From positions 1-40,646 of IMG/VR virus record IMGVR_UViG_3300043446_001217: a DNA stretch of 40,646 bases, one strand, 5' to 3'. Source of the DNA: a virus. This document shows positions 27,980-40,646 of this stretch, in pieces (within the stretch, counting starts at the first letter, position 1; every line of letters begins with the position of its first letter). Made by a program: the position numbers and the translations under genes. The notes below the pieces were generated by a model. It was not told the origin of the DNA and did no database searches. It worked only from the letters and a program-made list of their open reading frames with translations.

Positions 27980-28209
27980 TCTTTCCCCCTTGGCACGTAT
28001 CCAAACTTCTCCAGCATCTCAGGTGAGATCAGTAGTTGGTTCTGTTGTAGTTGTGGTGGCTCGGCGTACAGCGCGAACGTGTATCTGTCAGACTTCTTGC
28101 CGACAGTGATCGCGTCATACACGCCAAACAGAAACCCTTGCAGTTCGTTCGGATCGCAGTAAATCACCGGGCGCTTGGCGTCTTCCTGTGCTTTAAGTAA
28201 TGGGTCCAT
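27976..28209 (-). CDS. Hypothetical small protein
   Basis: 77 aa, MDPLLKAQEDAKRPVIYCDP then GFLFGVYDAITVG and PEMLEKFGYVPRGKE. A mixed alpha/beta fold is plausible; no motif recognised. Shine-Dalgarno GGAGAAG lies in the end of the upstream gene, which it overlaps by 17 nt; its stop overlaps the next start by ATGA. Confidence 0.55.
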   Translation of the reverse strand: MDPLLKAQEDAKRPVIYCDPNELQGFLFGVYDAITVGKKSDRYTFALYAEPPQLQQNQLLISPEMLEKFGYVPRGKE

Positions 28210-28426
28210 CGTTCTTCTCCTTCAGGTCTTTGATCTCTTGCCGCATTTCGAAATTCTCGGCATACAGTTTGGCGATGACATTCCGATTGTCCTTATCTCG
28301 GTTTGCTACCACCGTTGCGAATTCATGAAGCGCTCCATGCAGCTCGGCAATTTTGGCACTCATCGCTTTGGCTTCCTGCCAAAGATAGTCTTCTGTGATG
28401 CCTTTACTGACAATTGATTCTTCCAT
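28193..28426 (-). CDS. Hypothetical coiled-coil protein
   Basis: 77 aa, helical throughout (LWQEAKAMSAKIAELHGALH and KLYAENFEMRQEIKDLKEKN), so probably a coiled coil. Its C-terminal LKEKNDG is encoded by the Shine-Dalgarno and start of the next gene. It overlaps the upstream gene by 23 nt with the same kind of junction. Family unknown. Confidence 0.55.
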   Translation of the reverse strand: MEESIVSKGITEDYLWQEAKAMSAKIAELHGALHEFATVVANRDKDNRNVIAKLYAENFEMRQEIKDLKEKNDGPIT

Positions 28427-28562
28427 CGTTCTTCTCCCTCAAGTTGATAATCAACTGCTCCAACTGCTCTATCGAATACTCTCCGTCGATGCGGTACTTC
28501 TTGTCTTGCACCATCAGGTTGTGGTGTTGTATCTGTCCACACATCGGGCATTCAGTATTCAT
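28404..28562 (-). CDS. Small zinc-knuckle protein
   Basis: 52 aa from ATG 28562, with a strong AAGGAGGAAG upstream. It opens MNTECPMCGQIQHH: Cys5-x2-Cys8 and the nearby HH could hold zinc. The rest is helical and ends LREKNDGRINCQ, overlapping the next gene. ATGA coupling to the gene before it. Unrecognised. Confidence 0.55.
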   Translation of the reverse strand: MNTECPMCGQIQHHNLMVQDKKYRIDGEYSIEQLEQLIINLREKNDGRINCQ

Positions 28563-28792
28563 TTCTTCCTCCTTGTTCGGATACGGGTAGCACAGTAATA
28601 GCACCCCTGCTCCCAAGATCCATCTTCATAGTGCATATTTGCAATTCTTTCACACAACTTCGCACACTCCTCGCGCTCATTAAGTACGGCCATCTTGACG
28701 ATAAACTGCAATGCTTCGTATTCCTGCTGTAGAACCGCATCTCTGGTAACGGCTAATTTTCTAAACCGTTCAATCAACTCATCAATACTCAT
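28559..28792 (-). CDS. Hypothetical helical protein
   Basis: 77 aa. MSIDELIERFRKLAVTRDAV and NEREECAKLCERIAN are helical; the 'EREECAKLCE' motif is common in small phage proteins of unknown function. The C-terminus has a CYYC pair and a basic tail (RIRTRRKK). It overlaps the GNAT-like gene by 11 nt and couples to the next gene by ATGA. Confidence 0.6.
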   Translation of the reverse strand: MSIDELIERFRKLAVTRDAVLQQEYEALQFIVKMAVLNEREECAKLCERIANMHYEDGSWEQGCYYCATRIRTRRKK

Positions 28793-29204
28793 AATTCACC
28801 GTCTCTTCGTTTGTTTGCAACAACCGTGCGCCGTTCTTGTAGTGGAAGTTCCGTGCCATCTCGGTCTTCGGACTCATCGTGACGATGCGTTTGATTGGGG
28901 AACCCTGCACACGGAGCATCTCCAAATACTCACGCACCAGCTTGCTCGCTGTGCCTTTCTTGTACGACCAAACGCTGTACAGGATTGCGTTGTCAAGACA
29001 TATCCTGATCGGCGGCTCCATCAGTTCCGCTTCCGTGGTGGGTATCGTTTTGTGAAACGCAATGCACAGGATCGCCCCCAACTGTTTGTCCTCAATCAAC
29101 GCCCACACATCTCGCGTGTATCCAAGCCTGTCTTCGGGTTTGATGTTCGGGCGCACCGGGTCTTCAAGCAGGATGGGATCAGGTTTCTGTAGTTGGACTA
29201 GCAT
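28782..29204 (-). CDS. GNAT-like acetyltransferase-fold protein (early region)
   Basis: 140 aa from ATG 29204 (AAAAGGAAAAG Shine-Dalgarno). GNAT order is visible: GYTRDVWALIEDKQLGAILC (strands), AILYSVWSYKKGTASKLVRE (the acetyl-CoA helix, with KKGTAS as pyrophosphate loop candidate), and a C-terminal IVTMSPKTEMARNFHYKNGA (helix-strand). Substrate unknown; phage GNATs in early regions may modify host proteins. It differs from the virion-region GNAT at 8539. Confidence 0.65.
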   Translation of the reverse strand: MLVQLQKPDPILLEDPVRPNIKPEDRLGYTRDVWALIEDKQLGAILCIAFHKTIPTTEAELMEPPIRICLDNAILYSVWSYKKGTASKLVREYLEMLRVQGSPIKRIVTMSPKTEMARNFHYKNGARLLQTNEETVNYEY

Positions 29205-29209
29205 TTGTT

Positions 29210-29302
29210 CTTTTCCTTTTCTATGAGTTTTTCTGCCCACTCATTAAATCCATCCATTTGTCCTTTTCCTTTTCTATGAGTTTTTCTGCCCACTCATTAA
29301 AT
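29210..29302. repeat. 40-bp direct repeat from a 53-bp tandem duplication
   Basis: Bases 29210-29249 and 29263-29302 are identical over 40 nt, with a 53-nt period. The repeat covers the end of the 100-aa gene and runs up to the Shine-Dalgarno of the GNAT gene. Since 53 is not a multiple of 3, the second pass is read in another frame and ends the ORF. Confidence 0.95.
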
Positions 29303-29523
29303 TCATCAATGGTGAACCACGCCTTTGTTTCGTTGCTCTCCCGCAGCTTGGCTTCGACTAAACGGCGAATCAACTTTTTTTGCATCAACCAATACAATTG
29401 CTCGTCAGTCGTGTAGTAGCCTTCCCCATGCGCTTTAATGTTCTCTTGCTGAAGCTCGTCCTCAAGCGTATCAAGCTGAATATCAAACTCATCCCAAATG
29501 TTTTTCCAATCGTCGTCAGTCAT
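29221..29523 (-). CDS. Acidic hypothetical protein with duplicated 3' end
   Basis: 100 aa, acidic at the start (MTDDDWKNIWDEFDIQLDTL) and helical after (DEQLYWLMQKKLIRRLVEAK). The end reads FNEWAEKLIEKEKDKW and then MDLMSGQKNS. The last eight residues come from the repeat copy read in a second frame. Without the duplication the frame would have run to a TAG within the GNAT gene's first codons (ending EKEKNKC). ATGA coupling to the upstream gene. Function unknown. Confidence 0.6.
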   Translation of the reverse strand: MTDDDWKNIWDEFDIQLDTLEDELQQENIKAHGEGYYTTDEQLYWLMQKKLIRRLVEAKLRESNETKAWFTIDEFNEWAEKLIEKEKDKWMDLMSGQKNS

Positions 29524-29858
29524 GTGTTCTTCTCCCGCAGCTTGGCTTCGATCTTTGCGAACAACTGGCGCGCATATCCATTGACGTTTAAATCACCGTA
29601 GTATCCGATGATTTCTTTGATGTCTTCATCAGTCAGTCCGACCCACTCGCGTTTTCTTTGTAGATTGACTTCATCTAATGTCTTGTGGATTGACGAGACG
29701 CATTCACGCCTTTCCCCTGCAAAAATTCTTGATTTGATATGCGTGGGAGTAACGATAAGCTGTTGCGTCCAGTCGGGCGGTATCTTGCCTGTCACTTCTA
29801 CTTCTTCCTCCGGTATCCACTGCATGGTCTGCCTCTTTCTCCAACCTTTAGCTGGCAT
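29520..29858 (-). CDS. Hypothetical protein
   Basis: 112 aa from ATG 29858, which overlaps the upstream TAA (TAATG). An internal ATG at 29825 (MQWIPEEEVEVTGKIPPDW) has a better Shine-Dalgarno (GGAGAAAGAGG) and is the alternative start. It contains TPTHIKSRIFAGERRECV and GLTDEDIKEIIGYYGDLN, then KLREKNT at the end where the next gene's ribosome site is embedded. The 'LTDEDI.EI' piece is frequent in small phage proteins. Function unknown. Confidence 0.55.
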   Translation of the reverse strand: MPAKGWRKRQTMQWIPEEEVEVTGKIPPDWTQQLIVTPTHIKSRIFAGERRECVSSIHKTLDEVNLQRKREWVGLTDEDIKEIIGYYGDLNVNGYARQLFAKIEAKLREKNT

Positions 29859-30037
29859 TAACGTAGCACCTGTCCGATCCACACCACCGCACCGATGATC
29901 ACCACACCGAAACCCAACATCATTAGCCCTGCGCAGAGGTCTTCCAGCCACATCCGCTTGTCGTTGACCGGATCGGCGAACATGACGAACACACCAAACC
30001 CTACGGCTATCATGAACAATCCACTAAAGAAAATCAT
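29858..30037 (-). CDS. Small 2-TM membrane protein
   Basis: 59 aa with two hydrophobic helices (residues 1-20, MIFFSGLFMIAVGFGVFVMF, and ~36-57) joined by a short polar loop (ADPVNDKRMWLED). Strong Shine-Dalgarno (AAGGAGAAG). Starts by ATGA inside the zinc-protein stop and ends by TAATG on the next start, so it clearly belongs to the gene chain. It could affect the host membrane; function unknown. Confidence 0.65.
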   Translation of the reverse strand: MIFFSGLFMIAVGFGVFVMFADPVNDKRMWLEDLCAGLMMLGFGVVIIGAVVWIGQVLR

Positions 30038-30213
30038 GTCTTCTCCTTGTATGCGTGGTAACGGAACTTGTTATCCTCTCTGACACACGCCTTGCACCAG
30101 CTATTGAGCGTGTTGTATCGAGTCTTGTGATACTCATACGGTTGCTTGACTACCTTGCACATCGTGCATCTTGCTGGCTGATCTGCCGGTCTTTTTGTAC
30201 GTGATGTCGCCAT
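30034..30213 (-). CDS. Small zinc-ribbon protein
   Basis: 59 aa. The basic N-terminus (MATSRTKRPADQPARC) leads to two Cys pairs: CTMC (16-19) and CKAC (40-43), spaced as a zinc ribbon with YEYHKTRYNTLNSW between. This shape is common in small phage proteins related to HNH/recombination-helper folds. Start has GGAGG 9 nt upstream. It overlaps the winged-helix gene by 80 nt in another frame, which is long for this region. Confidence 0.6.
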   Translation of the reverse strand: MATSRTKRPADQPARCTMCKVVKQPYEYHKTRYNTLNSWCKACVREDNKFRYHAYKEKT

Positions 30214-30481
30214 CCTCTTGCGCCTCCAGTTTTCTGACTGCCAATGTATTGATACGCCACAGCATGTTCTTCGCTCGATACTTGCCATCAAACTGCAAGA
30301 TCATGCCGTGTCTACGCACCAAGCCTTCCTTCAACATCTTCTGTAGATTGACCCCCACGTTCTGTGTTGTCTGCCCCAACTGCTCGGCTATGTTGCGCGT
30401 GGTGATTTCCTTGTTTGCTTTACGCACTTCACGCATGGCGTTGATGATGCGCTTGGCTGCTGCCCGCATGAAGTCGGTCAC
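30134..30481 (-). CDS. Winged-helix DNA-binding protein
   Basis: 115 aa. After a helical start (RAAAKRIINAMREVRKANKE) it has an HTH (ITTRNIAEQLGQTTQNVGVN, LQKMLKEGLV) followed by a wing-like RRHGMILQFDGKY. The tail is basic and probably flexible. A transcription regulator of the early region is likely. Its start overlaps the upstream stop (ATGA). Confidence 0.65.
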   Translation of the reverse strand: MTDFMRAAAKRIINAMREVRKANKEITTRNIAEQLGQTTQNVGVNLQKMLKEGLVRRHGMILQFDGKYRAKNMLWRINTLAVRKLEAQEDGDITYKKTGRSASKMHDVQGSQATV

Positions 30482-30741
30482 TTCGCCACCTGTATCAGCT
30501 TCTCCCCCAACTGTTGCCGAGCGCGATTGAACGTGACGGTGATGTCGGTATGGCTGGCTTTTGTTGGTACAAAGTGCCCATCAAGAATGAACATGTTGCG
30601 CTCACGTAGGTACGCGATACACGCCTTGCGCCGCTCGTCATAGCGCCGAGGATCAGTCGGCTTGCAGTTCTCCACCGGAATCAAGTCCGGTGCGAGCGCG
30701 TCATACACAAACAATGAATTGATCAGGTCTGCCAGTCTCAT
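30478..30741 (-). CDS. Hypothetical protein
   Basis: 87 aa: MRLADLINSLFVYDALAPDL, then RRYDERRKACIAYLRERNMF and TFNRARQQLGEKLIQVAK. Mostly helical and basic, possibly nucleic-acid binding. GGAGAATTAA Shine-Dalgarno. The 87 nt between it and the upstream gene hold no gene I can support. Confidence 0.55.
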   Translation of the reverse strand: MRLADLINSLFVYDALAPDLIPVENCKPTDPRRYDERRKACIAYLRERNMFILDGHFVPTKASHTDITVTFNRARQQLGEKLIQVAK

Positions 30742-30828
30742 TTAATTCTCCAAAAAGGTGGGGTACTCGCTGCACTGGCGTACGTGCCTTGCGTAGCGTC
30801 ATACCAGCATCCGCTTTCCCCCGTTGAT

Positions 30829-31197
30829 CTACGATACGCGCAGTATTTCAAGCGCTTTGTTATCGTTAATGCGATGCGTGACGTAGTTCCCCGAACCCCA
30901 CAATTGCCCCGCCACGGTTGCGGTAGTGGCTTGCAGTTGGTCAATGGCAACATGCTTCAGATCATCGTTGGACAGATCAAGCACAAGGGTTTCACCCGCT
31001 TGCATAGATTGCAATCCTTCACGGACATGCCGTGTCATCTTTCCGCGCAATGGACCAATGATGTAGGAGCTACCTTTGGATCCTCTTTGTTTCGGCAATT
31101 CCCCATACACTTGCCCTTCATAATGCACCTCATACACAGCACCCGCTGCGTTGAGTAGTGCGATGGCTCGATCTACTGCAATGTTCTTTGTGCTCAT
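30829..31197 (-). CDS. Hypothetical protein with WGSGNYVTH motif
   Basis: 122 aa. MSTKNIAVDRAIALLNAAGA is helical, then a beta region (YEVHYEGQVYGELP, SSYIIGPLRGKM). The C-terminus (QLWGSGNYVTHRI... ALEILRV) resembles a small basic domain found in several phage hypothetical proteins. Function unknown. It follows the DUF3310 gene with 1 nt between stop and start. Confidence 0.6.
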   Translation of the reverse strand: MSTKNIAVDRAIALLNAAGAVYEVHYEGQVYGELPKQRGSKGSSYIIGPLRGKMTRHVREGLQSMQAGETLVLDLSNDDLKHVAIDQLQATTATVAGQLWGSGNYVTHRINDNKALEILRVS

Positions 31198-31198
31198 G

Positions 31199-31630
31199 CT
31201 ACGCTCCCGGTTTAAGTGAATTGAGTTTCAACAGGTAGTGCTGTGCCTTCAACAGATCATCCGCGTTCTTCTTCCGGGCAAGGTACTTGATTGCATTACC
31301 CTTCAGGAATCCACGAAACTCCTCCGGAGTGAGCCACGACTCCATCGCATCCCACGGTTGCACACCCAAAGACTTGTAGTGGTCCCCACCGATCTGCACC
31401 GCATTGGGATCATCGGCTTGGATTGCATCGACGGGTTCAACCACTTCAAACGCAAACTTCTGCTCTGGTTTCTTCTTTTTCTTAACTTGTACAAGTCCTT
31501 TCTTTTTCTCGGTTGACTTCACCACGTACACATACGCCTTGCTCACACCGAAGTGTTCGGCAACTTCTGCCGCTGTGTACCCCTTGTTCAACATGCTCAT
31601 GATTTTGAATTGTTTGGTTACTTTTGCCAC
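31199..31630 (-). CDS. HTH-DUF3310 fusion protein
   Basis: 143 aa from a GTG start (AGGAGAAG, 4 nt upstream). Residues ~10-38 are an HTH (YTAAEVAEHFGVSKAYVYVV), followed by a Lys-rich linker (KKKGLVQVKKKKKPEQ). Residues ~80-140 are DUF3310 (PF11753): QIGGDHYKSLGVQPWDAMES, then FLKGNAIKYLARK and DLLKAQHYLLKL. DUF3310 is usually stand-alone in phages and related to nucleotide-metabolism folds. The added HTH suggests DNA targeting. The 148 nt upstream hold no clear gene or promoter. Confidence 0.85.
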   Translation of the reverse strand: MAKVTKQFKIMSMLNKGYTAAEVAEHFGVSKAYVYVVKSTEKKKGLVQVKKKKKPEQKFAFEVVEPVDAIQADDPNAVQIGGDHYKSLGVQPWDAMESWLTPEEFRGFLKGNAIKYLARKKNADDLLKAQHYLLKLNSLKPGA

Positions 31631-31778
31631 TTTGCTTCTCCTGTAAAAGTTGAGGGTGCATGGTGTCTGAATTACCTGTCAAGCTATGACGCGTCTCAGG
31701 TTTGACGTGTGGCGAACTACACGCATTCAGGCTGTTATCCGCATCCATGCCAACGGAGGGAGGTAGACGCCGCTTGAT

Positions 31779-32081
31779 CTATGACGGAGTGCTGAGTGCG
31801 TCCAGCATCTCGCGTACTAAATCCATACCATCTTCATAGATGACCAGTGCCGTGCCACCTGCATCCGCGATGCGTCTTAACTCGCGTTCTTGCAATGCGG
31901 TAGTCTGCCCTTTCCCCGCCTTGCACTCGATGGCAAAGAACACGCCCTTGCAGCAGCCGATGATGTCAGGCACACCAGAGCGTCCATAACCCCCGGTGGC
32001 AGGGCAAAAGTAATACACCCCGCGCTCATCCAGTATGCGTCTAACTTGCGCTTTGACTTTACCTTCGGGTGTGCTTGCCAT
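31779..32081 (-). CDS. VRR-NUC domain nuclease
   Basis: 100 aa from ATG 32081. It shows the VRR-NUC (PF08774) core: TPEGKVKAQVRRILDERGVY, the G-x-x-D-I motif SGVPDIIG and the E-x-K pair FFAIECKAGKG, then LQERELRRIADAGG. Stand-alone VRR-NUC proteins in phages cut branched DNA or act in recombination and packaging. The ATG lies 2 nt after the DUF3150-like stop; the ribosome site is poor, so translational coupling is likely. Confidence 0.88.
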   Translation of the reverse strand: MASTPEGKVKAQVRRILDERGVYYFCPATGGYGRSGVPDIIGCCKGVFFAIECKAGKGQTTALQERELRRIADAGGTALVIYEDGMDLVREMLDALSTPS

Positions 32082-32083
32082 GA

Positions 32084-32932
32084 TCAATCCATGAATTTCA
32101 AAATGTCATCAATCCTTGACTTGACTTCGGCCCGTGCACCATCCGTTTCGCGCAGGTCTTTTGCGTCAAGCCCCATGATAGTTTTCTCCAACTCTTTCCG
32201 TGCATGCTCCAGCTTCGGATCATTGGTCACGTTAAGACGCGTGAGCAGACCACACAACTCGGCGGCATTCTCAAGCATGCTATCTCTGAAGATTGTCTTC
32301 TTCCCGTCTTCGGATACTGATAAACGCCCTTGCATGTGCGTCAAGCATCCGTGCAGCCTATCCCATAAATCCTTAGTGACACTGTTCAACCTATCTGCGT
32401 AGGCTTGTTCGTACTGCCGTGCCAATTCTTGTTTGATGGCATCGTCAGCAGTCACCCTCCAGTCCCCTACATCGGGCACTGGGGAAAAAGTGTAACTCAA
32501 ATTAAATTTGCTTGCAATCACATCCGAGTGGGGGTACTCATCCCGGTTGAACAGCGCTCCCAACTGGAAGGCTTGTGCCGCAATCAACACCCCGTACTTA
32601 GTACAAAAATTCTGCACCGCTGTGTTGAATTCCGTCTCAAGAACGCTAAGTTCCCGCTTGTAGTCCATGAAGTTAGACATCGGCAGTAGACGCTCCCCGC
32701 TGTCTGCCCACGGCAGGGTCTGCTTAACGTGCCAATTCCTGATCTTCCCTGAAACAGTCTTGACTTGCTCCAACTCCGTGACCCCTGCGAACAGGTTCTT
32801 GTGGTAATTCCCTGCGCGGGTCTTGGTGGACTTAGCAACGTCCACTTCTTCTGACACTTCACGGTCCAGCTTGCGTCCCGTCCACACAGACAATGAAATG
32901 TTAGCCAGTACACCTGAATTAGCAATGCTCAT
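32084..32932 (-). CDS. DUF3150-like protein, partner of MoxR/VWA proteins
   Basis: 282 aa. The N-terminus (NISLSVWTGRKLDREVSEEV), then AGNYHKNLFAGVTELEQV and RNWHVKQTLPWADSGERLLP match the DUF3150 signature as I know it ('sLW..RkLd', 'TLPW.D.G.RlLp'). The rest is long helices (~95-282) with no catalytic motif. In bacterial genomes DUF3150 occurs with MoxR AAA+ and VWA genes; here the same three genes are adjacent, which supports both the call and a joint complex. Directly abuts the VWA gene. Confidence 0.75.
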   Translation of the reverse strand: MSIANSGVLANISLSVWTGRKLDREVSEEVDVAKSTKTRAGNYHKNLFAGVTELEQVKTVSGKIRNWHVKQTLPWADSGERLLPMSNFMDYKRELSVLETEFNTAVQNFCTKYGVLIAAQAFQLGALFNRDEYPHSDVIASKFNLSYTFSPVPDVGDWRVTADDAIKQELARQYEQAYADRLNSVTKDLWDRLHGCLTHMQGRLSVSEDGKKTIFRDSMLENAAELCGLLTRLNVTNDPKLEHARKELEKTIMGLDAKDLRETDGARAEVKSRIDDILKFMD

Positions 32933-34081
32933 TTAAACCTCCGTATTGATATAGATTGCTTTACCCACAGTGGGCACAGCACGTTTGTTGTTGACAATGC
33001 ACCACACCACAGGGCACGTCCATCCTCGCCCCCAGTTCGGTACATACCCGTCTGTCAACATGATTACGCATTCGGGTTGGATGCGTTCCTTCAACAAGTA
33101 ATCAGACACGCACATCGGATTAGTACCGCCCCCACCTTTGGGTTTGGTGCTATCGCGCATCTGTTCGTACTCATACTGGTTGTACTTCTCATGCGCAGCA
33201 ACATGCGTGTCCCAGTAAAGCAAGTCCAACAACTCCGGGTTGAGCACGGTTGCCAGCGATACGACTTCCGCAATGAACTTGGACAGCACCGGACCCTGAA
33301 TCGAACCTGATGTGTCTGTGCCGACCACGATCCGTCCCAAGGTTTCCGAATACATGGATGGCAGGTAATCCCCCCTGTCAATCGCACGGCGGTTGGGTCT
33401 GCGCCATGTGGAGATGTCTCGCCCCTTGCACAAGGTCATGACGTACTCGCGCAACTCATCCTCCCACCTGACCTCCGGCTCAATGGATGCGCGAACCTGC
33501 CGATCCATCGTCTCGGACAACTTACCCGCCACCACCCCGCCCTGACGGATGGCAGACTCAACCTCCTTCGCTTGTGCTGCGGCTTCCTCTTCGGTCAGTG
33601 TCTCTTGCCCCGTCCAGTCATGTTGGTCAAACCCCTGCTTCCCACCGGATGGGGGTGGGTCTTTCTTCAGCAGCCGGTACACCTCCCCGGCATCCATCCC
33701 CCTGTATTTGGGGTCGTACAGCCCCAATTTGGGTAACTGCACAAACCCTTCCCCGGCATCGCTGTCCATGATCATCAGGTTGATCACGTAGTCACAAGCC
33801 ATGTTTGCCAACTGCGGGTTCTCCTTCCACAGCCCCCGCCATGTACTGAGATGTCTGAGCGCCTTGTGCAAGTTCTCGTGCAGGATGGCGAACCGTAACT
33901 CAGGATCAGTCAAAGTTTTAATAAACTCCTCCCCATACTCGACGTTGAACCCGTCCGTACAGGCAGTGGGTACGTCCGACAGCAGGGTCTTGCCCATCAT
34001 CACCACCCCACCCAAGGTCCGATACTTCTTGTGGGTGATGATTGACAGGGTGCACTTGGTCAGTCTTTGCTCTGGTGTCAT
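32933..34081 (-). CDS. VWA protein with N-terminal HExxH metallopeptidase-like domain (DUF2201)
   Basis: 382 aa. The N-terminal half has H68-E69-N70-L71-H72 (FAILHENLHKALRH) followed by NMACDYVIN, the DUF2201_N putative metallopeptidase pattern. The C-terminal half is a VWA-like domain: MIDAS D256-x-S258-x-S260 (VVGTDTSGSIQG), then a core with CVIMLTDGYVP. Such proteins pair with MoxR ATPases, which remodel or load metals on target proteins. It lies 6 nt downstream of the MoxR gene and abuts the DUF3150 gene. It probably acts in the cytoplasm on a host or phage protein not known. Confidence 0.88.
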   Translation of the reverse strand: MTPEQRLTKCTLSIITHKKYRTLGGVVMMGKTLLSDVPTACTDGFNVEYGEEFIKTLTDPELRFAILHENLHKALRHLSTWRGLWKENPQLANMACDYVINLMIMDSDAGEGFVQLPKLGLYDPKYRGMDAGEVYRLLKKDPPPSGGKQGFDQHDWTGQETLTEEEAAAQAKEVESAIRQGGVVAGKLSETMDRQVRASIEPEVRWEDELREYVMTLCKGRDISTWRRPNRRAIDRGDYLPSMYSETLGRIVVGTDTSGSIQGPVLSKFIAEVVSLATVLNPELLDLLYWDTHVAAHEKYNQYEYEQMRDSTKPKGGGGTNPMCVSDYLLKERIQPECVIMLTDGYVPNWGRGWTCPVVWCIVNNKRAVPTVGKAIYINTEV

Positions 34082-34087
34082 GGCTCG

Positions 34088-35176
34088 TTACGCTCCGAAC
34101 ATCCACTCGTTTGCCGTTGCCCACTTGACGAAGGTACGGTTGTTGTGGGCGATGGTCCGCTTGTTTGTCGTGACAATGTTCAATGCAAACACCCCCTGAT
34201 ATTCCTTGGGAAGTCGCTCACAGTATTCCAACCATGCGTCAAGGGTCTTTGCCTCCACCAGCATGATTGCGCTGAACACCGTGATGAAGAGCGCCGCGAA
34301 GTCCTCCGGCTCGGGCACAGGGGCGGTCTTGGGGTTGGCTACGATGGTTTCCCATGCAGGTAGCCGGTCATCAACCTGCGCAAAGCTCATGATGTCCCGA
34401 GCAGCAGACTCACCCACACACCCGGCGATGGCGGCGTAGGCAGCGTTATCACTGATGTACTTACGCTTGTGCAGGATGTGGCTTGCCTTGTGCAGCGAAC
34501 GGGGGGTGACGAATGCCCGAGCGGTCTTGTGCGGGTAGTAGATGTACGGGTTGCCATCACCATCGGTGTAGGACGCAAGGCACATCGGGAACTTCTTCAC
34601 CCAAGAAGATATTACAGGATGAATACCGTTGTCCGCTGCCCACGGCAACCACTCCTCGGCGTTGGGTTTGCGCACCGTGATGAAGGACACCCGGTTCTGT
34701 GCATGGGACTGCACATGATCCCCCAACCCCTCGGCGCTCAGGTTGGTCGTACCGAACACGATACTGCCCGAGGGCAGCGAATACTCGCCCACCTTCTTCT
34801 CATGCAACAGACGCAGCACACTGTTTTGCACAGGGCGCATTGCCTTGCCGATCTCATCAGCCATGAACAGCACAGGATTCGTGCCTTGGATGTTGAGCAT
34901 GGCATTGGGTGCAAACCGTGTGACCTTCACACCGTTGGTTGTTTCTGTGAACGGCACACCGCTCATGTCTGACACATCGAAGGTCGGCATCTCGGCATAC
35001 ATGCAGGTGTACTGCGGCATGCGCTTGCCCAACTCATACAGCATGTAGGACTTGCCGATCCCCATCTCACCTTGGAATATGAAGGTCACATCCTCACCGC
35101 AATGCTGCACAAGACTTGCGGCTTCAACCAGTGAAATATTTTGTCCAAAAGATACGTCTTTGCTCACGTTCTTCAT
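34088..35176 (-). CDS. MoxR-family AAA+ ATPase
   Basis: 362 aa. Walker A GEMGIGKS (36-43), Walker B VLFMADE (102-108), sensor 1 GTTN (142-145) and a helix-insert region typical of MoxR/CobS-like ATPases. The C-terminal ~180 residues form a lid and helical region (YYPHKTARAFVTPRSLHKAS). MoxR proteins act as chaperone-like motors with VWA partners, here encoded next door. Shine-Dalgarno GGGAGAAG; the start overlaps the paralogue gene upstream by 53 nt. Confidence 0.9.
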   Translation of the reverse strand: MKNVSKDVSFGQNISLVEAASLVQHCGEDVTFIFQGEMGIGKSYMLYELGKRMPQYTCMYAEMPTFDVSDMSGVPFTETTNGVKVTRFAPNAMLNIQGTNPVLFMADEIGKAMRPVQNSVLRLLHEKKVGEYSLPSGSIVFGTTNLSAEGLGDHVQSHAQNRVSFITVRKPNAEEWLPWAADNGIHPVISSWVKKFPMCLASYTDGDGNPYIYYPHKTARAFVTPRSLHKASHILHKRKYISDNAAYAAIAGCVGESAARDIMSFAQVDDRLPAWETIVANPKTAPVPEPEDFAALFITVFSAIMLVEAKTLDAWLEYCERLPKEYQGVFALNIVTTNKRTIAHNNRTFVKWATANEWMFGA

Positions 35177-35486
35177 TTGCTTCTCCCGTATATAGTTTTA
35201 GTTCTACATTTGCTTCTGCTTCTGTGAAAAACCATGTTATATCTCGTTTGTCTTCTTGCGTACCCTCCATAAATTGTTTGTAAATTTTCCACACAGAATG
35301 CACTGCTTCTTCCCGCGTTGCACCGACACGAGCAAAGTGCTTGAGTTCATTCGGGTTATGCAACGCACTTACTGCCAACTGAACAGATGCCATGTAGGTC
35401 TTGTTACTACCTGTTGGTGACTCTTTACTATAGACCTGCAACTGTGCACCGTCCAGTTTTAGCAATGCTTCAACTTCATCTTCTCG
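35124..35486 (-). CDS. ALLxLDG-family paralogue 1 (longest, diverged)
   Basis: 120 aa, starting MREDEVEALLKLDGAQLQVY. It shares the N-terminal 'E-x-ALL-x-LDG' and 'G-x-T-x-EEA-x4-W-x2-Y' (GATREEAVHSVWKIYKQF) with three genes upstream, then has an extra C-terminal domain (DITWFFTEAEANVELKLYTG). The 3' end overlaps the MoxR start by 53 nt. Function unknown; position suggests a link to the MoxR block. Confidence 0.65.
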   Translation of the reverse strand, partial: REDEVEALLKLDGAQLQVYSKESPTGSNKTYMASVQLAVSALHNPNELKHFARVGATREEAVHSVWKIYKQFMEGTQEDKRDITWFFTEAEANVELKLYTGEANEEREQRRIFWTKYFTG

Positions 35487-35670
35487 CATTGTTATACATC
35501 TCCCATGTAGTCTCCCATGCTTCTTCCAAGGTATCACCGTACCCGATAACGAATATGCCTGTAAAATTTGGGTGTTTGAGTGCCATCGCATGTTTCCAAT
35601 GACCATATATTATTTTTTCCCATGTCACACCATCAAGCTTGAGCAGTGCTTTTATTTCGTCTACGTTCAT
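35476..35670 (-). CDS. ALLxLDG-family paralogue 2
   Basis: 64 aa: MNVDEIKALLKLDGVTWEKI, then IGYGDTLEEAWETTWEMYNN. A short N-terminal helix, a beta-like centre and a C-terminal aromatic helix. GGGGGAGAT precedes the ATG. Overlaps paralogue 3 by 38 nt and paralogue 1 by 11 nt. Unknown family to me. Confidence 0.7.
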   Translation of the reverse strand: MNVDEIKALLKLDGVTWEKIIYGHWKHAMALKHPNFTGIFVIGYGDTLEEAWETTWEMYNNARR

Positions 35671-35869
35671 ATCTCCCCCATGCGTCTTGCCATGCTTCTT
35701 CTTCAGTCATACCGTACCCGCCAACAAATGGGTAAAAGTAGTTAGTAGCTGCATATTGAATCTTCACCCGATACTTCCAAGGACTCACTTTGTCCACAGT
35801 ATTGATACTTTCCTCCCATGTAATACCATCAAGGGTGAGTAGTGCTTTTATTTCGTCTATCGTTCTCAT
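35633..35869 (-). CDS. ALLxLDG-family paralogue 3
   Basis: 78 aa from ATG 35869 (GGAGGAGGT). MRTIDEIKALLTLDGITWEE, centre YRVKIQYAATNYFYPFVGGY, then GMTEEEAWQDAWGRYERRRN and tail KSTAQA. The tail is encoded by the start of paralogue 2 in another frame. Unknown function. Confidence 0.7.
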   Translation of the reverse strand: MRTIDEIKALLTLDGITWEESINTVDKVSPWKYRVKIQYAATNYFYPFVGGYGMTEEEAWQDAWGRYERRRNKSTAQA

Positions 35870-36074
35870 ACCTCCTCCATGCGTTTTGTAGGGCGGTATC
35901 TTTAGTGCGCCCATGTCCTCTGTAACGTTTGCTACTCCACTTCCCATTACGAACATCATCGAAACTATAGATGGTTACCACGATTTCTCCAATGTTGTTT
36001 CGAACACTCCATGTCATGCCATCCAGCGCAAGTAATGCAGTGATTTCTTCTGATGTAAGACTAATACTTTTCAT
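35829..36074 (-). CDS. ALLxLDG-family paralogue 4
   Basis: 81 aa from ATG 36074 (GGGGGGTGG). MKSISLTSEEITALLALDGM, then a beta-like centre (GEIVVTIYSFDDV), GRTKDTALQNAWRRYENDRR and tail NKSTTHP. As in paralogue 3, the tail is written by the first codons of the next copy in another frame (41-nt overlap). Coupled by ATGA to the tiny membrane protein upstream. Confidence 0.7.
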   Translation of the reverse strand: MKSISLTSEEITALLALDGMTWSVRNNIGEIVVTIYSFDDVRNGKWSSKRYRGHGRTKDTALQNAWRRYENDRRNKSTTHP

Positions 36075-36172
36075 CCACCCCCCATCGAGAACAGCACCAC
36101 CACGCTGACCCACAACACCGCTGCGATAGCACCAAGCAGCAGGAACTCTCCCAACCATCTAAGCACAGTCAT
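36071..36172 (-). CDS. Tiny single-TM protein
   Basis: 33 aa: a short basic start (MTVLRWLGEFLL) running into one hydrophobic helix (LGAIAAVLWVSVVVLF) and a Gly tail. AGGAAG precedes the ATG. It overlaps the 84-aa gene by 14 nt and the next start by ATGA, so it fits the gene chain. A toxin-like or membrane-modulating peptide is possible; unproven. Confidence 0.5.
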   Translation of the reverse strand: MTVLRWLGEFLLLGAIAAVLWVSVVVLFSMGGG

Positions 36173-36413
36173 TTTCCATCTTCCTAAGTTTATTTACCAT
36201 CGACACAAACAACGGTGTCTTATCGTCGCCACAGACGAACGCACTCTCGTCCTCATCCCACAGCGCGAGGAACTCGCCAAGGTCACCAACCAACTCATCT
36301 GTTTCTATGTCCGTCTCCCCTCCGTCCATCAGCGCAAAGTAAGACCTGCGCAGCATCTGAACCAGTTTGTCTACCTCGGTCATATTGTCTACCCATGTAA
36401 GGTAATTGCTCAT
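36159..36413 (-). CDS. Acidic hypothetical protein
   Basis: 84 aa, strongly acidic in the middle (GGETDIETDELVGDLGEFLA, LWDEDESAFVCGDD) with helical ends. Acidic small phage proteins are sometimes DNA mimics, but nothing specific shows that. Strong AAGGAGGTG ribosome site, part of a leader shared with two other genes. Confidence 0.55.
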   Translation of the reverse strand: MSNYLTWVDNMTEVDKLVQMLRRSYFALMDGGETDIETDELVGDLGEFLALWDEDESAFVCGDDKTPLFVSMVNKLRKMENDCA

Positions 36414-36414
36414 C

Positions 36415-36579
36415 TCACACCTCCTTGATTATTGACATCATGCGCACCTCGTACTGGGACACGCACCCCGCACGCAGGTCACCCTGCTTGCATAGCGCCA
36501 TGTCTTTCTCGGCGAGCATCTCGTTTAGGTACACCCCCACCACATCGTCATCACACAGCAACAGATACACATAGTTCAT
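36415..36579 (-). CDS. Small hypothetical protein
   Basis: 54 aa: MNYVYLLLCDDDVVGVYLNE, then MLAEKDMALCKQGDLRAGCV. Begins with a beta strand and acidic turn; four Cys. Its stop (GTGTGA) lies inside the next gene's ribosome site, 1 nt before that start. Uses the GGAGGTGTGAG leader. Family unknown. Confidence 0.55.
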   Translation of the reverse strand: MNYVYLLLCDDDVVGVYLNEMLAEKDMALCKQGDLRAGCVSQYEVRMMSIIKEV

Positions 36580-36591
36580 CTCACACCTCCA

Positions 36592-36768
36592 TTAAAATAA
36601 TGCCGCTTCCGGCTCGGGTTGCTTGGGTTTCTCGGTATCAACAATCTTCGATCCGATCTTGCTGTTGTAGTACAGCGCAGCGCAATACGCCTCTGCACCG
36701 ATGCGCGTAGCGAAAGAACGCTCTAGCGATTTCTTCTTCTTGGGTATTGTCTCGACGCGGTATCTCAT
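36592..36768 (-). CDS. Small basic hypothetical protein
   Basis: 58 aa: basic start (MRYRVETIPKKKKSLERSFA), central TRIGAEAYCAALYYNS and a Pro/Glu tail. GGGAGG Shine-Dalgarno. 11 nt lie between the M20-like gene's stop and this ATG. The positive charge suggests nucleic-acid or acidic-partner binding. Unknown family. Confidence 0.5.
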   Translation of the reverse strand: MRYRVETIPKKKKSLERSFATRIGAEAYCAALYYNSKIGSKIVDTEKPKQPEPEAALF

Positions 36769-36779
36769 GCCAGCCTCCC

Positions 36780-37847
36780 TCAGTTAATTGTGTTCGTGTT
36801 GTAAACCAAGTCTTCAGCCAACATCGTCAGCATGTCAGCTACACTTGCCGCATCACCACACTCGACCCAGTCCAACAACTCTTGAAACCGCATGCCGACA
36901 ATATCCTCGGCGCTCTGTGGTGCTCGTACACGATGCCCACGCTTGCTGTACCGCTTGTCGTACAGACCGTCATAGTCAATCCCGCTTGCCACTTCATACC
37001 GACCATACCCACTCCAGTCGTACTCCGGGTCCCGCGCATGGGGATCACGCTTCACGGGCAGAGAAGTGATAGTTCTTGAATCCTTGAACACATTCACCAC
37101 CGCATCACGCAGCGTACTGAGGAAGATAGCGTCCAACATCTCGCTAGCCGTATGCTCTGAGTCATACCCCACGCTGATGTTCGTACACTCGGGGATGAGC
37201 CGTCTGTAGTTAGCCGTGTCGGTGAATATGCCTGTCGGGTCAGGATGCAAGTCGAGAAAGTCAGGCTTGTACCCGTTGATGCGATCACCGAATGCCAGTG
37301 CAAACTCGTTGCTGGCACACACCCCACCTGACTGCTCGGTGATGATGCTGGTATCCCCGCGTCTGTCGAATGCCACGGCATACTTAAACCCGGACAGCCA
37401 CTCGGCATGGTGGTCTGCCATGCCACCCGAGCCAATGCCCCCTCGCTCCTCGCCCCGGTGGAATATGTAGCTACCGGGCACACCTGCGTCGATCATCTCC
37501 ATCAGTAGCCATATACCCGCTGCATCATCTGCGCCTAGCGGTTTGCCATCGTCTTTGTAGAACAACCCACACGACTTGTCATACAGCACGGTCTGCATGT
37601 AGTTCTTGTTGCTGTCCTCCACCGTGTGCACGGTGTCCACATGGCATGACCACAGCATGGGTGGCACGACCTTGTTCTCGTCTGCCACATCCACGACAAA
37701 CGCCAGTATGTCCTGCGTTAACGGATCATGGAATACCGTGGGCTTGTATGGCAGGAGAAACTTCTTGATGAACACTCGTTCACCCACCGAGTTATGCGCC
37801 CGACGATAGCGCATCATGTTAGCCAGTCGTTTCATATTTTCTTGCAT
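36780..37847 (-). CDS. M20-like zinc metallopeptidase/hydrolase
   Basis: 355 aa. Zinc-hydrolase motifs appear in M20/M28 order: H69-x-D71 (WSCHVDTVHT), D107 in LGADDAAGIW, the catalytic Glu pair E133-E134 (HRGEERGGIGSGG), D161 (VAFDRRGD) and H232 (GYDSEHTASE). These bind two zinc ions in aminopeptidases, deacylases and related enzymes. The C-terminal ~100 residues differ from the family and may be a phage-specific domain. No signal peptide. Substrate unknown: a host peptide, acylated small molecule or modified amino acid. Confidence 0.82.
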   Translation of the reverse strand: MQENMKRLANMMRYRRAHNSVGERVFIKKFLLPYKPTVFHDPLTQDILAFVVDVADENKVVPPMLWSCHVDTVHTVEDSNKNYMQTVLYDKSCGLFYKDDGKPLGADDAAGIWLLMEMIDAGVPGSYIFHRGEERGGIGSGGMADHHAEWLSGFKYAVAFDRRGDTSIITEQSGGVCASNEFALAFGDRINGYKPDFLDLHPDPTGIFTDTANYRRLIPECTNISVGYDSEHTASEMLDAIFLSTLRDAVVNVFKDSRTITSLPVKRDPHARDPEYDWSGYGRYEVASGIDYDGLYDKRYSKRGHRVRAPQSAEDIVGMRFQELLDWVECGDAASVADMLTMLAEDLVYNTNTIN

Positions 37848-37849
37848 GG

Positions 37850-39469
37850 TTATTCCCCTTCGGTTTCAGTTTCGGTTTTAACAACAGGATCATCCTCGTG
37901 GTACACCAACCCGTCATCACGGATTTCGGCATCTAACTCGTGGATCGTCCGTCCATCATGGGTTGTTGCGGTATCACGGAAAAACGCATAGGTATTGCCA
38001 TCGCTGTCAGGCACAGCGAGTTCCTTACACGAACCGTTATGCACCAGACCGCGACTTGTCATGCACAGATCGTCGATGTGATACCAGTCACCCGTTACCT
38101 CACAGCAATAAATATCCGCTTGGTTGGCATAGTCCACATGGTAATTCTCGCCATCGCTCTCGCAATGAATGACATCATCGCTAGAGACAAACTCTTGATC
38201 GCGCCGTGAGACATACGCAAGGGTGTAGTAACGGTCTACACAATCCTGACAGACTGAATCACCCCGACTCTCGATGTAACAAAAATCATCATCGTCATCG
38301 TAGCTATCGCCACAGTCCGGGCAGGTGCATTGCCCACCATTCAATACCCCACTGGTAGTCTGTGCGTCCCAATCTCCGTCACGACTGAGCAGCAGATACT
38401 CCTTGCCATCGCGTACCACCAACGATGCCGACATATGGATGTCGTTACCTGAGTCAATGTAGGGGCAGACATACGAGTTATCCCAACGATTGACCCGCTC
38501 GGCGGCAAGCAACACATCCCCCATGCCACCATGCGTATACCCTTGACTCTCCAGTCGCTCACGCATTGCCATATGCCAGCGGGTATTCTCGGAACTAGTG
38601 GTGTTTGGATAGGGGCGGATGTATTCCTTGGTGTCCTCACGCACGATGCACCGCGCTGTGATTGTGTCACCATGCGAGAGATACGCCAGTCGCAACACCG
38701 ACTTGTCATGGGCATACACCCTGACTGAACTGTCGCCAGTCATGCAGGAACTAGGACCATACCGGTACACCCTGACCCACTCATCGGGGTCATCGGACGC
38801 AGCAAAGTTAAGGTCAGCCGGTGCTGCCATTGCTTGCACACGCTCAGACCAAGTGCGAATCTGATTCTCGCCCAACACATGACCGAAGAACTTGGTCAGA
38901 TACCGCCCGGGTTTAGTGCGTGTCCAGCGGTCTGCCATCAACTTGTCCAAGCTATCGGCATAGGCTATCTGCAACGGGTCTTCCTCGCTGATGTGCACAA
39001 AGTGCAACCGTGCTGCGTTGCTCTGCGCAAACCATGACTCGCTGTCCCACGGCGCTGGCATCCATGTGCGCCCTATCTTGTTGCTCGCCGTCTGCATAAC
39101 ATCGAGGAACTTTCGCTGCACCTCGTAATCCCGCGTGACGACTGCAATAGCCAGCGCATCAGGGCGGACGTTGAAGTTGCTGGTGTACTCCGTCTTGAGC
39201 AAATCGCCATACTCATCGGGATGCGAAGCTACCGAGTAGACGGTGCGCATCTTGTCCTCCACGGACATATCCTTGATGTTGAGAAACGCAAGCGTATGCC
39301 CCACAAACTTTGCAAACTTACGGTGTTGCATTACGCGACCCCGAGAACCACAATAAATGTACTCACGGACAGGGGACGGTGCTGGGGGTAAGACTTCCCA
39401 CTTGCGGCGCACATAGGTTGCCGCAGTTGGTTTGACGGATTGAGTCTGTTCAATGTGTTCGCTTTGCAT
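37850..39469 (-). CDS. Phage protein with SCM motif and Cys-rich zinc domain
   Basis: 539 aa from ATG 39469, chosen for its strong GGAGGTTCAA ribosome site; the longer TTG/ATG starts near 39514 lie in a palindrome without a ribosome site. The centre has YRYGPSSCMTGDSSVRVYAH, then SVLRLAYLSHGDTITARCIV, a pattern I recall from phage proteins of unknown function. The C-terminal third has zinc-finger-like Cys pairs (CTCPDCGDSYDDDDDFC and CQDC, later CCEVTGDWYHIDDLC). Ends in an acidic Thr/Glu tail. Role unknown. Confidence 0.7.
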   Translation of the reverse strand: MQSEHIEQTQSVKPTAATYVRRKWEVLPPAPSPVREYIYCGSRGRVMQHRKFAKFVGHTLAFLNIKDMSVEDKMRTVYSVASHPDEYGDLLKTEYTSNFNVRPDALAIAVVTRDYEVQRKFLDVMQTASNKIGRTWMPAPWDSESWFAQSNAARLHFVHISEEDPLQIAYADSLDKLMADRWTRTKPGRYLTKFFGHVLGENQIRTWSERVQAMAAPADLNFAASDDPDEWVRVYRYGPSSCMTGDSSVRVYAHDKSVLRLAYLSHGDTITARCIVREDTKEYIRPYPNTTSSENTRWHMAMRERLESQGYTHGGMGDVLLAAERVNRWDNSYVCPYIDSGNDIHMSASLVVRDGKEYLLLSRDGDWDAQTTSGVLNGGQCTCPDCGDSYDDDDDFCYIESRGDSVCQDCVDRYYTLAYVSRRDQEFVSSDDVIHCESDGENYHVDYANQADIYCCEVTGDWYHIDDLCMTSRGLVHNGSCKELAVPDSDGNTYAFFRDTATTHDGRTIHELDAEIRDDGLVYHEDDPVVKTETETEGE

Positions 39470-39498
39470 TTGAACCTCCGATAGAAAAGAAAAAGAAT

Positions 39499-39516
39499 CG
39501 TTGGACATGTCCAACG
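39499..39516. promoter_or_regulatory. 18-bp perfect palindrome, copy 1 (operator or terminator hairpin)
   Basis: CGTTGGACATGTCCAACG is fully symmetric. It lies between the stop of the 72-aa gene and the start of the 539-aa gene, 30 nt before that ATG. On the minus strand it is followed by ATTCTTTTTCTTTTC, so as RNA it could be a terminator or attenuator. Its 16-bp core and the same flank (AGC on the minus strand) recur at 40438-40456. Confidence 0.8.
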
Positions 39517-39735
39517 CTAAACACGGACTGCTTTCTGATTGCTACCACGCAACACCTCTGCTGCACTCTCACGGGTCACCAACTGATACGCACCCTTTTG
39601 GTATTGCTGGGTCACGCACCACGATTGCCGTTCGATCCTTGCTGCTTCCTCACCACAGAACAGGCAGGTCTGATACCCCAGCGCCCACCGCTTTGCAGGT
39701 ACATCGTCACCACACCACATGCAGAACTTATCCAT
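39517..39735 (-). CDS. DksA/TraR-like zinc-finger protein
   Basis: 72 aa: MDKFCMWCGDDVPAKRWALG followed by YQTCLFCGEEAARIERQSW. The C-x2-C ... C-x2-C-GEEAAR set looks like the DksA/TraR zinc finger. The tail (YQKGAYQLVTRESAAEVLRG) matches a phage family I recall with a 'kGgYqLit' motif. It could touch host RNA polymerase but is unproven. GGAGGCG ribosome site; overlaps the next upstream gene by 8 nt. Confidence 0.7.
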   Translation of the reverse strand: MDKFCMWCGDDVPAKRWALGYQTCLFCGEEAARIERQSWCVTQQYQKGAYQLVTRESAAEVLRGSNQKAVRV

Positions 39736-39883
39736 TACGCGCCTCCACTTTCTTTATTGCTTCGGTTGCATTCCATGCACGGACATAAGTGCGCTCGCCC
39801 GTGCGCTCATTCACCACGACCCACACGCCTACATTTTTGCCACGGACTGCCTTCAGCCCGAGGTTGTTGCATCGGTTACACAT
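39728..39883 (-). CDS. Small zinc-binding hypothetical protein
   Basis: 51 aa: MCNRCNNLGLKAVRGKNVGV, then WVVVNERTGERTYVRAWNAT. The opening C-x2-C and beta strands suggest a single small zinc-stabilised sheet. GGAGGAGG ribosome site. Overlaps both neighbours by 8 nt. Confidence 0.6.
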   Translation of the reverse strand: MCNRCNNLGLKAVRGKNVGVWVVVNERTGERTYVRAWNATEAIKKVEARNG

Positions 39884-40280
39884 GCTGATCCTCCTCCATG
39901 TAGTTAAGACCCATGTAGCCTGATGCGTAGTCGGAAGGCGCAAGCCCCATGCGAAACCCGATGTGCTTGTACCAACCATTTTCCTGCTTGCCACACGCAT
40001 AGAAAAACCCATCGCTTGATTGCGAGCGGTTGCCAAACGCGCAGAGCGCCCATGTGAAGCGCGATTGCAAAATATTTTTTTCGCACCATTTGTGAAACTC
40101 AAACTGCGCTTCCACATCGTTGTCGTATGTGTAAAGAGCGTAATCCCTGCGCCACTTCTCCAGCGTCATGTCGCGCACCCAGTCTGGCTCAGTTGTCAGA
40201 ATCATTTTGTGAATCTGCGCATCGCTCAGTCGTACTGAGTCCGGCCATTGCACAAGCTGCACTTCCCACATTGTTCTCAT
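39876..40280 (-). CDS. Hypothetical protein, first gene of the minus-strand operon
   Basis: 134 aa from ATG 40280, chosen for its GGAGGTGTGAG leader. MRTMWEVQLVQWPDSVRLSD, RDMTLEKWRRDYALYTYDND, then aromatic segments (CEKNILQSRFTWALCAFGNR) and GWYKHIGFRMG. Trp/Tyr-rich, mixed alpha/beta. The frame stays open for another 113 codons upstream, but that part crosses the hairpin and palindrome and lacks a ribosome site. Unknown family. Confidence 0.6.
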   Translation of the reverse strand: MRTMWEVQLVQWPDSVRLSDAQIHKMILTTEPDWVRDMTLEKWRRDYALYTYDNDVEAQFEFHKWCEKNILQSRFTWALCAFGNRSQSSDGFFYACGKQENGWYKHIGFRMGLAPSDYASGYMGLNYMEEDQHV

Positions 40281-40401
40281 CTCACACCTCCAGTAAAAAA
40301 TTAAAAAGTAATCGGCGCATGGAATGCACCCAGCAACACACGGCGCGGGAGGCGATGATCGTTCCCGAGGGTTACTGCAAAAATGCTGTGTGCTGGTGGG
40401 T

Positions 40402-40423
40402 GCACCCTGCCGAGGCAGGGTGC
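40402..40423. promoter_or_regulatory. Strong 9-bp stem hairpin
   Basis: GCACCCTGC and GCAGGGTGC form a perfect 9-bp stem with the 4-nt loop CGAG. On the plus strand GGTTGTTGTTTGG follows, a weak U-rich tail, so a terminator for rightward transcription is possible. It sits 14 nt from palindrome copy 2. Confidence 0.65.
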
Positions 40424-40437
40424 GGTTGTTGTTTGGT

Positions 40438-40453
40438 GTTGGACATGTCCAAC
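40438..40453. promoter_or_regulatory. 16-bp perfect palindrome, copy 2
   Basis: GTTGGACATGTCCAAC, identical to the core of the site at 39499-39516 and in the same orientation by its GCT flank (19 identical bases, 40438-40456). No U tract follows on the minus strand here, so at this copy a protein-binding site is more likely than a terminator. Confidence 0.75.
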
Positions 40454-40646
40454 GCTTTGGTCGGTTTTGGTTTGGCTCAGGCGTTTGTACCTGTGCTGTG
40501 CATAGTGGAGGCGGTTGCCCCCTGTTAGCCACGCAGGTGGATAGCGGCGAGGGTGTGCTAGACCCCGCGCCCAAGACCTTGACCCCGATCTCGTACTGGC
40601 TACCCATAACTGCACCCATGCTGACCCGTCAGGACAACTCACACGC

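Follow-up and report, generated by a model that had tools for sequence, protein, structure and literature searches.

A predicted lidless di-zinc peptidase of phages is frequently encoded beside a partner protein with a likely GNAT-like fold

What might a phage do with a zinc peptidase encoded in the same arm as its replication genes, and does such an enzyme act alone? The question is raised by an open reading frame of 355 amino acids (36780..37847, minus strand) in the window, meaning the whole 40,646-nucleotide stretch of viral DNA that was analysed (positions 1 to 40,646 of record IMGVR_UViG_3300043446_001217). The original prediction, made from the letters alone, had read this frame as an M20-like zinc hydrolase in a phage early operon; the jobs that it proposed treated the peptidase as a lone enzyme, and the partner gene at 37850..39514 (minus strand) was left unconnected. 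The observation itself is confirmed here, and the earlier interpretation proved correct as to the class of enzyme but incomplete in content.

The order of residues typical of M20/M28/M42-type di-zinc exopeptidases, for which we use the name clan MH, is H-x-D, D, E-E, D, H, and it is present in the peptidase at the residue numbers originally given. The H69-x-D71 motif lies at 37635..37643, D107 of a GAD motif at 37527..37529, E133-E134 at 37446..37451, D161 at 37365..37367 and H232 at 37152..37154, all on the minus strand, and each is invariant in every homologue that covers its column. From the M20/M28 enzymes we take H69 to be the first zinc ligand, D71 the Asp that follows it, D107 the bridging Asp, E133 the catalytic Glu, E134 the ligand Glu, D161 the ligand Asp and H232 the last ligand His. 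In alignment A3, all seven residues were found in 88/88 members. A survey of homologues for lost zinc ligands, using 272 distinct stretches from profile hits at E <= 1e-30 and including divergent huge-phage copies, found none lost, with the canonical residue at all seven columns in 269-270 stretches and gaps in the remaining 2-3. R162, T209, D210, C221, N223 and E236 are also invariant or nearly so and serve as markers of the family. The integrity of the zinc site is thus well supported, and the protein is, in all likelihood, an active zinc hydrolase as predicted. Enzymes of the M20/M28/M42 group take off terminal residues or acyl groups.

The assignment as a peptidase is not a chance match, as the phrog_4191 "peptidase" profile matches residues 3-330 of the window protein at 4e-62 and solved peptidase T (3gb0) is matched at 3e-11 when a profile built from the family is used. 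An AlphaFold2 model of the protein (mean pLDDT 89.9, with residues 280-298 forming a poorly predicted linker) has the predicted catalytic-domain fold of the M20/M28/M42 group, with peptidase T ranked first by Foldseek (1.6e-12) and with 3gb0 and 3rza both at Z 25.1 by VIA-align (rmsd 2.6-2.7 over 242-243 aligned residues), ahead of the M42 aminopeptidases. The comparison with M20, M28 and M42 structures therefore agrees, at the level of a model, with the proposed class of zinc exo-hydrolase with an intact site, for which fold match, profile match and invariant residues all speak. Peptidase T and the related M20 tripeptidases (3gb0, 3rza, 1fno) share the catalytic domain and the order of site residues with the window peptidase, at 18% identity to peptidase T across the aligned region; the aminopeptidases of M28 and M42 belong to the same fold group. 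A divergent C-terminal third, as had been noticed, is borne out by the model, where structural matches stop near residue 265 and residues 271-310 have block-mean pLDDT values of 41-68 before a helical end.

The label "M20-like" holds for the catalytic domain, whose closest solved relative is peptidase T, and fails for the rest of the M20 architecture. Profile comparison with 3gb0 did not find the lid, the dimerisation domain that M20 enzymes carry as an insert within their catalytic domain, and the matched blocks are separated by 73 residues in the phage peptidase vs 182 in 3gb0, from which we conclude that the lid is absent; the ~109 extra residues of PepT are where its lid lies. At the level of Pfam, the 88 members matched M28 more often than M20 (M28 74/88, M20 19/88, M42 9/88, counted at E <= 0.01 instead of the curated cut-off; one member can match several families). 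The window protein itself gave no row against PF01546 (M20) at E <= 1, and its 16.2 bits against PF04389 (M28) lie under the curated cut-off of 21.3. On the evidence of the model and the profiles, the peptidase is best called a lidless di-zinc exopeptidase or amidohydrolase of the M20/M28/M42 group, and it is filed in neither M20 nor M28.

Taken alone, the peptidase is an already annotated phage family, phrog_4191. The phrog_4191 members of KP34-like, phiM1-like and related phages belong to the same family as the window protein, with 28-51% identity to it among the aligned rows. By tblastn at E <= 1e-3, the peptidase was detected in 364 of 50,697 phage records, all at < 60% identity and mostly from phages of Klebsiella (230), Pectobacterium (51) and Vibrio (42); 5 of 72,556 plasmid records have it as well. 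No close relatives were found at the DNA level or with exact peptide patterns taken from this one protein. Labels among the rows listed were "peptidase", "putative peptidase", "metal-dependent hydrolase" and "hypothetical protein", and the Pseudomonas phage YMC11/06/C171_PPU_BP (L143 4157-4959) has the peptidase annotated as two ORFs. The earlier remark that such peptidases are not commonly discussed therefore stands for the literature, where the parts of PMC4411677 and PMC6115819 that were available give it one line without a function, and does not stand for annotation, since many phage records name it. Those parts list both the KP34p11 peptidase and the preceding hypothetical KP34p10 as conserved among KP34-like phages (PMC4411677), and describe the peptidase as the sole one of six conserved early ORFs of phiM1-like phages to be given a function (PMC6115819).

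The partner gene encodes a protein of 554 amino acids that matches phrog_6980 at 4.3e-15 and ends 2 bases upstream of the peptidase ATG; by eye, a ribosome-binding-like AGGGGAA lies in its last codons (37853..37859, minus strand), upstream of that ATG. When adjacency is defined as a gap of -450 to +900 bases between the longest ORFs, the partner lies next to the peptidase in 103 of 114 loci drawn from viral contigs, genome contigs, the window and five annotated records. In a viral scan seeded with the peptidase, 78 of the best 80 of at least 548 confirmed relatives were adjacent and one lay at a contig end; in L053, also among these best 80, the contig starts within the tail of the partner. 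The gap was <= 70 bases in 69 of the 78 adjacent viral loci, and 22 of the 78 had a 4-base overlap. Of 50 loci on genome contigs, 28 were taken to be of phage type, with 19 adjacent, four at contig ends and five without the partner (L099, L104, L110, L114, L117); in L098, one of the four contig-end loci, the partner lies directly downstream of the peptidase, which is the reversed order. The other 22 (L118-L139) were distant and, being regarded as cellular M20/M42-type loci, do not enter the linkage counts; seven of them passed the peptidase profile and none had the partner.

The same arrangement was recovered from other starting points. A reverse scan seeded with the partner gave 38 loci, of which 34 were adjacent and four at contig ends, and a scan seeded from Klebsiella, Vibrio and alpha sequences gave 72 adjacent loci, five contig ends and three loci without the partner among the best 80 of 379, many of them near-identical. 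Contigs recur among these scans and only the best matches were kept, so they are neither independent nor unbiased samples. In individual records, the partner lies directly upstream of the peptidase in Rhizobium phage Pasto, in Bradyrhizobium phage BDU-MI-1, in Methylobacterium and Limnohabitans plasmids, in CB5 (where the partner region consists of two ORFs) and in Klebsiella NTUH-K2044-K1-1. Thermus phage P23-45 has the peptidase without the partner, and no partner was found beside the Lactococcus P087 peptidase, judged by annotated names only. Two joined frames were also seen. In Klebsiella phage pKP-M212-2.1 both proteins lie in one ORF of 1004 residues, the only ORF in the loci of the viral and genome scans to match both profiles, and this fusion may be an indel. 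In Shinella sp. PSBB067 (L005 4993-7863), a 956-aa ORF directly before the peptidase combines a T7-type RNA polymerase-like part with the C-terminal tail of the partner, probably through a deletion in a decaying prophage.

The genetic linkage of peptidase and partner is well supported, and the two also diverge in step. Across 100 loci that have both genes, a Mantel test gave r 0.905, and the highest value among 999 permutations was 0.098, which speaks for co-inheritance of the pair and not for contact between the proteins. Neighbouring genes were grouped by single-linkage clustering, with links at >= 95% identity excluded, and the next commonest neighbour family was present in 18 of 114 loci; the idea of a third, constant companion of the pair was rejected at this best value. 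These figures bear on the simplest of the alternatives, in which a broad peptidase frees amino acids for phage growth and the partner sits beside it by common inheritance only. That the closest solved relatives of the peptidase are tripeptidases and aminopeptidases suits such a nutritional role; yet the linkage persists at median identities of 0.37 for the peptidase and 0.25 for the partner while other neighbours are not shared, and it occurs in both gene orders, and we regard this reading as the least probable of those considered here.

The pair is kept in 40-kb podoviruses, plasmids and prophage-like contigs, and also turns up, with the gene order reversed, in phages as large as 500 kb. It is very likely that the two proteins share a function, and highly probable that they act together. 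In the parts of the records and papers available to us, one half of the pair appears as a bare "putative peptidase" and the other as a hypothetical or "putative structural" protein. A search of open-licence PubMed Central found no literature that treats the pair as a unit, which is no proof of its being unpublished. What is new here is the frequent partnership, the two gene orders and the likely fold of the partner, the peptidase family being known by annotation.

The partner was predicted with high confidence across most of residues 150-540. Its core (residues 200-358; 38441..38917, minus strand) is GNAT-like in the model and carries an S256-C257-M258 signature (38741..38749, minus strand), in which S256 is kept by 76 of 78 homologues; C257, M258, Y267, R288, P351, D354, G389 and C398 are kept by 78/78. 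Foldseek against the PDB gave nothing at E <= 1e-3, and its top rows, at 2.2e-3 to 7.8e-3, were aminoacyl-tRNA-dependent peptide synthases, with 10 of the first 12 rows being aminoacyl-tRNA-dependent synthases, FemX or MprF. With VIA-align, nearly all rows were GNAT proteins, the best reaching Z 9.1 over 94 residues at 230-356, little above the Z 7-8 that models without a clear match reach, and a GNAT-like fold of the core is thus likely without being proven; the absence of a family from the VIA-align rows does not exclude it. The GNAT-fold aminoacyl-tRNA-dependent transferases Sbb17, FemX and MprF head the Foldseek list with E no better than 2.2e-3 and no sequence link, and the Cys-rich tail is a phage-specific feature that sets the partner apart from them. 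By hhalign, the partner matched none of four GNAT-type Pfam families, in a test without power since known GNAT families failed to detect each other (0/6 pairs), and it showed no relation to Fem/MprF-type transferases in a comparison whose positive controls failed also.

We take the loop [QR]xxGx[GA] at the beta4/alpha3 junction to be the acetyl-CoA motif of GNAT enzymes, and it was not found at the expected place in the window partner. It stands there in 6 of 78 partner homologues, somewhere in the core in 15 of 78, and in none of 11 huge-phage copies; in the comparison sets it was found in 15 of 24 PF00583 stretches, 8 of 18 of Acetyltransf_6 and 2 of 6 of LPG synthase. Its absence is weak evidence on the use of CoA, because the pattern also occurs anywhere in 5 of 11 Leu/Phe transferases. 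Among phage GNATs, the acetyltransferase Rac (LUZ19 gp28) acts on the host in infection; it differs from the partner in being another gene (gp28) and in being described, in the available part of PMC7552054, with a predicted acetyl-CoA pocket. Against a library of viral structures, the first 18 matches of the partner model had no functional name, and among the 21 matches at E <= 1e-3 one was called "LIM domain protein" and one "acyltransferase". At 39499-39516 (minus strand) there is a perfect palindrome of 18 bases, with a T-rich stretch after it, that looks like a terminator or attenuator; as it overlaps the listed start of the partner ORF, the start codon of the partner is uncertain.

The reading that we prefer, at a probability of about 0.35, is that of a two-protein module in which one part makes and the other cuts an amide bond. 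The peptidase would be a competent di-zinc exo-hydrolase, of aminopeptidase or N-acyl-amino-acid hydrolase type, working with the protein of the upstream gene. The GNAT-like acyltransferase core of the partner would form an amide bond between a target and an amino acid or acyl group, its Cys-rich tail may recognise a protein or peptide, and the peptidase would remove or trim what was added; the outcome would be the editing, in infection, of a protein or peptide of the host or the phage. This proposal comes from the type of the peptidase, which cuts, and from the ranking of its GNAT-like partner beside aminoacyl-tRNA-dependent transferases, which would add; transferase activity, amide chemistry, target, timing and purpose of the pair are all what we infer. 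If the making and cutting of an amide bond is the true function, phages would have a novel way of editing proteins or peptides, and the pair would supply enzymes that form and cut amides.

Making and cutting is the simplest joint job for the two proteins, and an explanation nearly as good gives the partner no catalysis at all; through its tail it would recognise a peptide of host defence or signalling, or the end of a protein, and deliver it to the peptidase, which would destroy it in counter-defence or host takeover. The tail of the window partner (residues 390-545; 37880..38347, minus strand) is Cys-rich and weakly LIM-like, with PF00412 (LIM) matched in 4 of 78 members (best 0.0077) and a solved LIM protein at E 0.08. 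Such weak LIM-like matches fit an adaptor, as do the variety of the tails, which are Cys-rich or made of repeats and include CxxCxGxG runs in huge phages, and the strictly conserved site of the peptidase. Set against this are the residues of the partner core that are invariant in 78/78, e.g. C257, Y267, R288 and D354, and the huge-phage copies beside the peptidase that have no tail; both make the core, and not the tail, the constant part of the partner. We consider the adaptor possible, though somewhat doubtful. PADLOC found no match at E <= 1 for five proteins of the minus-strand arm, a null result that says nothing on counter-defence.

The huge phages show the pair in a different state. A scan seeded with the copy from a 642-kb phage gave 80 loci, the best of 584, and an upstream partner was found in 0 of the 77 non-edge loci. 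In 12 of these best 80, two of which (L293 and L294) share one sequence, the next ORF downstream is a shorter, partner-like protein with the SCM signature; most of the 80 have no partner downstream either. Eleven downstream copies can be aligned well; they share RARALLW-, DRIY- and YPYLD-like blocks, lack the Cys-rich tail, and match the window partner family by profile comparison at probability 94.8 and E 5e-8. Among 28 records picked from the huge-phage loci, seven of them on contigs where the pair was already known, the partner family was present in 23 (1-8 copies) and the peptidase in all 28 (1-4 copies); by coordinates, the peptidase is directly followed by the partner in 14 of the 28, namely the seven known ones and 7 of the 21 others. 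Scan and copy counts together show a pair in both gene orders whose families also live apart in huge phages, and since none of the 77 non-edge loci has an upstream partner and both families also occur as solo copies, neither protein strictly needs the other.

Other huge-phage partner copies that were read have varied tails, among them CxxCxGxG runs, acidic repeats and others. Two solo partner copies (L441 1128-2735 and L442 1377-2927, both minus strand) end in long CxxCxGxG runs, which to us resemble DnaJ zinc fingers. A more specific and rather unlikely form of the make-and-cut proposal would have a CoA-independent transferase that uses aminoacyl-tRNA to tag host or defence proteins or peptides, a dedicated zinc aminopeptidase that edits the tags, and an expansion of the transferase in huge phages, to as many as eight copies in a record, whose recognition tails can be exchanged.

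A GNAT-like partner could instead act on a base or nucleotide in the manner of Mom, with the hydrolase trimming or reversing the product. Mom-family GNATs do occur in phages and modify adenine, as stated in the available part of PMC7824862. No nucleic-acid-modification gene recurs among the 12 largest named neighbour families, however, and the closest solved relatives of the hydrolase are peptidases, and DNA or nucleotide modification thus appears improbable. A link to tRNA synthetases was suggested by a glutamyl-tRNA-ligase-like gene ~2.8 kb downstream of the pair in the Methylobacterium plasmid and was dropped, because among all ORFs examined it recurs only in the huge-phage loci L299 and L307.

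Read from the right end of the window, the minus-strand arm carries the partner, the peptidase, small genes, a MoxR-type ATPase (34088-35176, minus strand; phrog_1297), a VWA protein with a DUF2201 putative metallopeptidase domain (32933-34081, minus strand; phrog_1314) and the polymerase, helicase and primase genes. Placement in an early operon, as first proposed, agrees with this position in an arm with replication genes and gains nothing from the promoter scan, which was at chance (6 found vs a mean of 6.3 in shuffles); a terminator scan of the window was near chance as well. The right third of the window (28000-40646) had no megablast match among 50,697 phage records, and the best-ranked row for the window polymerase was a Rhizobium phage at 34.6% identity. 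A MoxR gene was near the peptidase in 10 of 114 loci and a VWA gene in 11 of 114; in Thermus phage P23-45 an ATPase and a VWA gene follow ~1 kb after the peptidase. A MoxR-vWA pair with an N-terminal metallopeptidase domain is described for jumbo phages in the part of PMC7824862 that was available. A possible DUF3150 protein, with a match under the cut-off, lies within 32084-35176 (minus strand), and between peptidase and ATPase four small ORFs (35124-36158, minus strand) share an ALLxLDG ... GxTxxxAWxxxWxxYE pattern and are apparently tandem duplicates.

Finally, particle data exist for one relative. In the GenBank record of the Klebsiella phage fHe-Kpn01 (MN380459), notes of detection in particles by LC-MS/MS stand at the partner (gp12), the peptidase (gp13) and gp14, and these are the only marked proteins in gp02-gp23, the primase, helicase and DNA polymerase being unmarked. 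On this basis both proteins might belong to the virion, where they would process or modify structural proteins, or they might be packaged and enter with the DNA. The 29 proteins marked as particle-associated in the record, a figure that the available part of PMC7291057 also gives, nevertheless include obvious candidates for carry-over (RNA polymerase, nucleases, scaffold, maturases and endolysin); the pair too may have been carried over, and in loci whose annotation was read the pair lies beside replication and not structural genes. A virion role is accordingly judged unlikely. The third marked protein, gp14 (L443 7000-7467), is encoded by the small gene after the peptidase in fHe-Kpn01, and CB5 and NTUH-K2044-K1-1 have a small gene at the same place.
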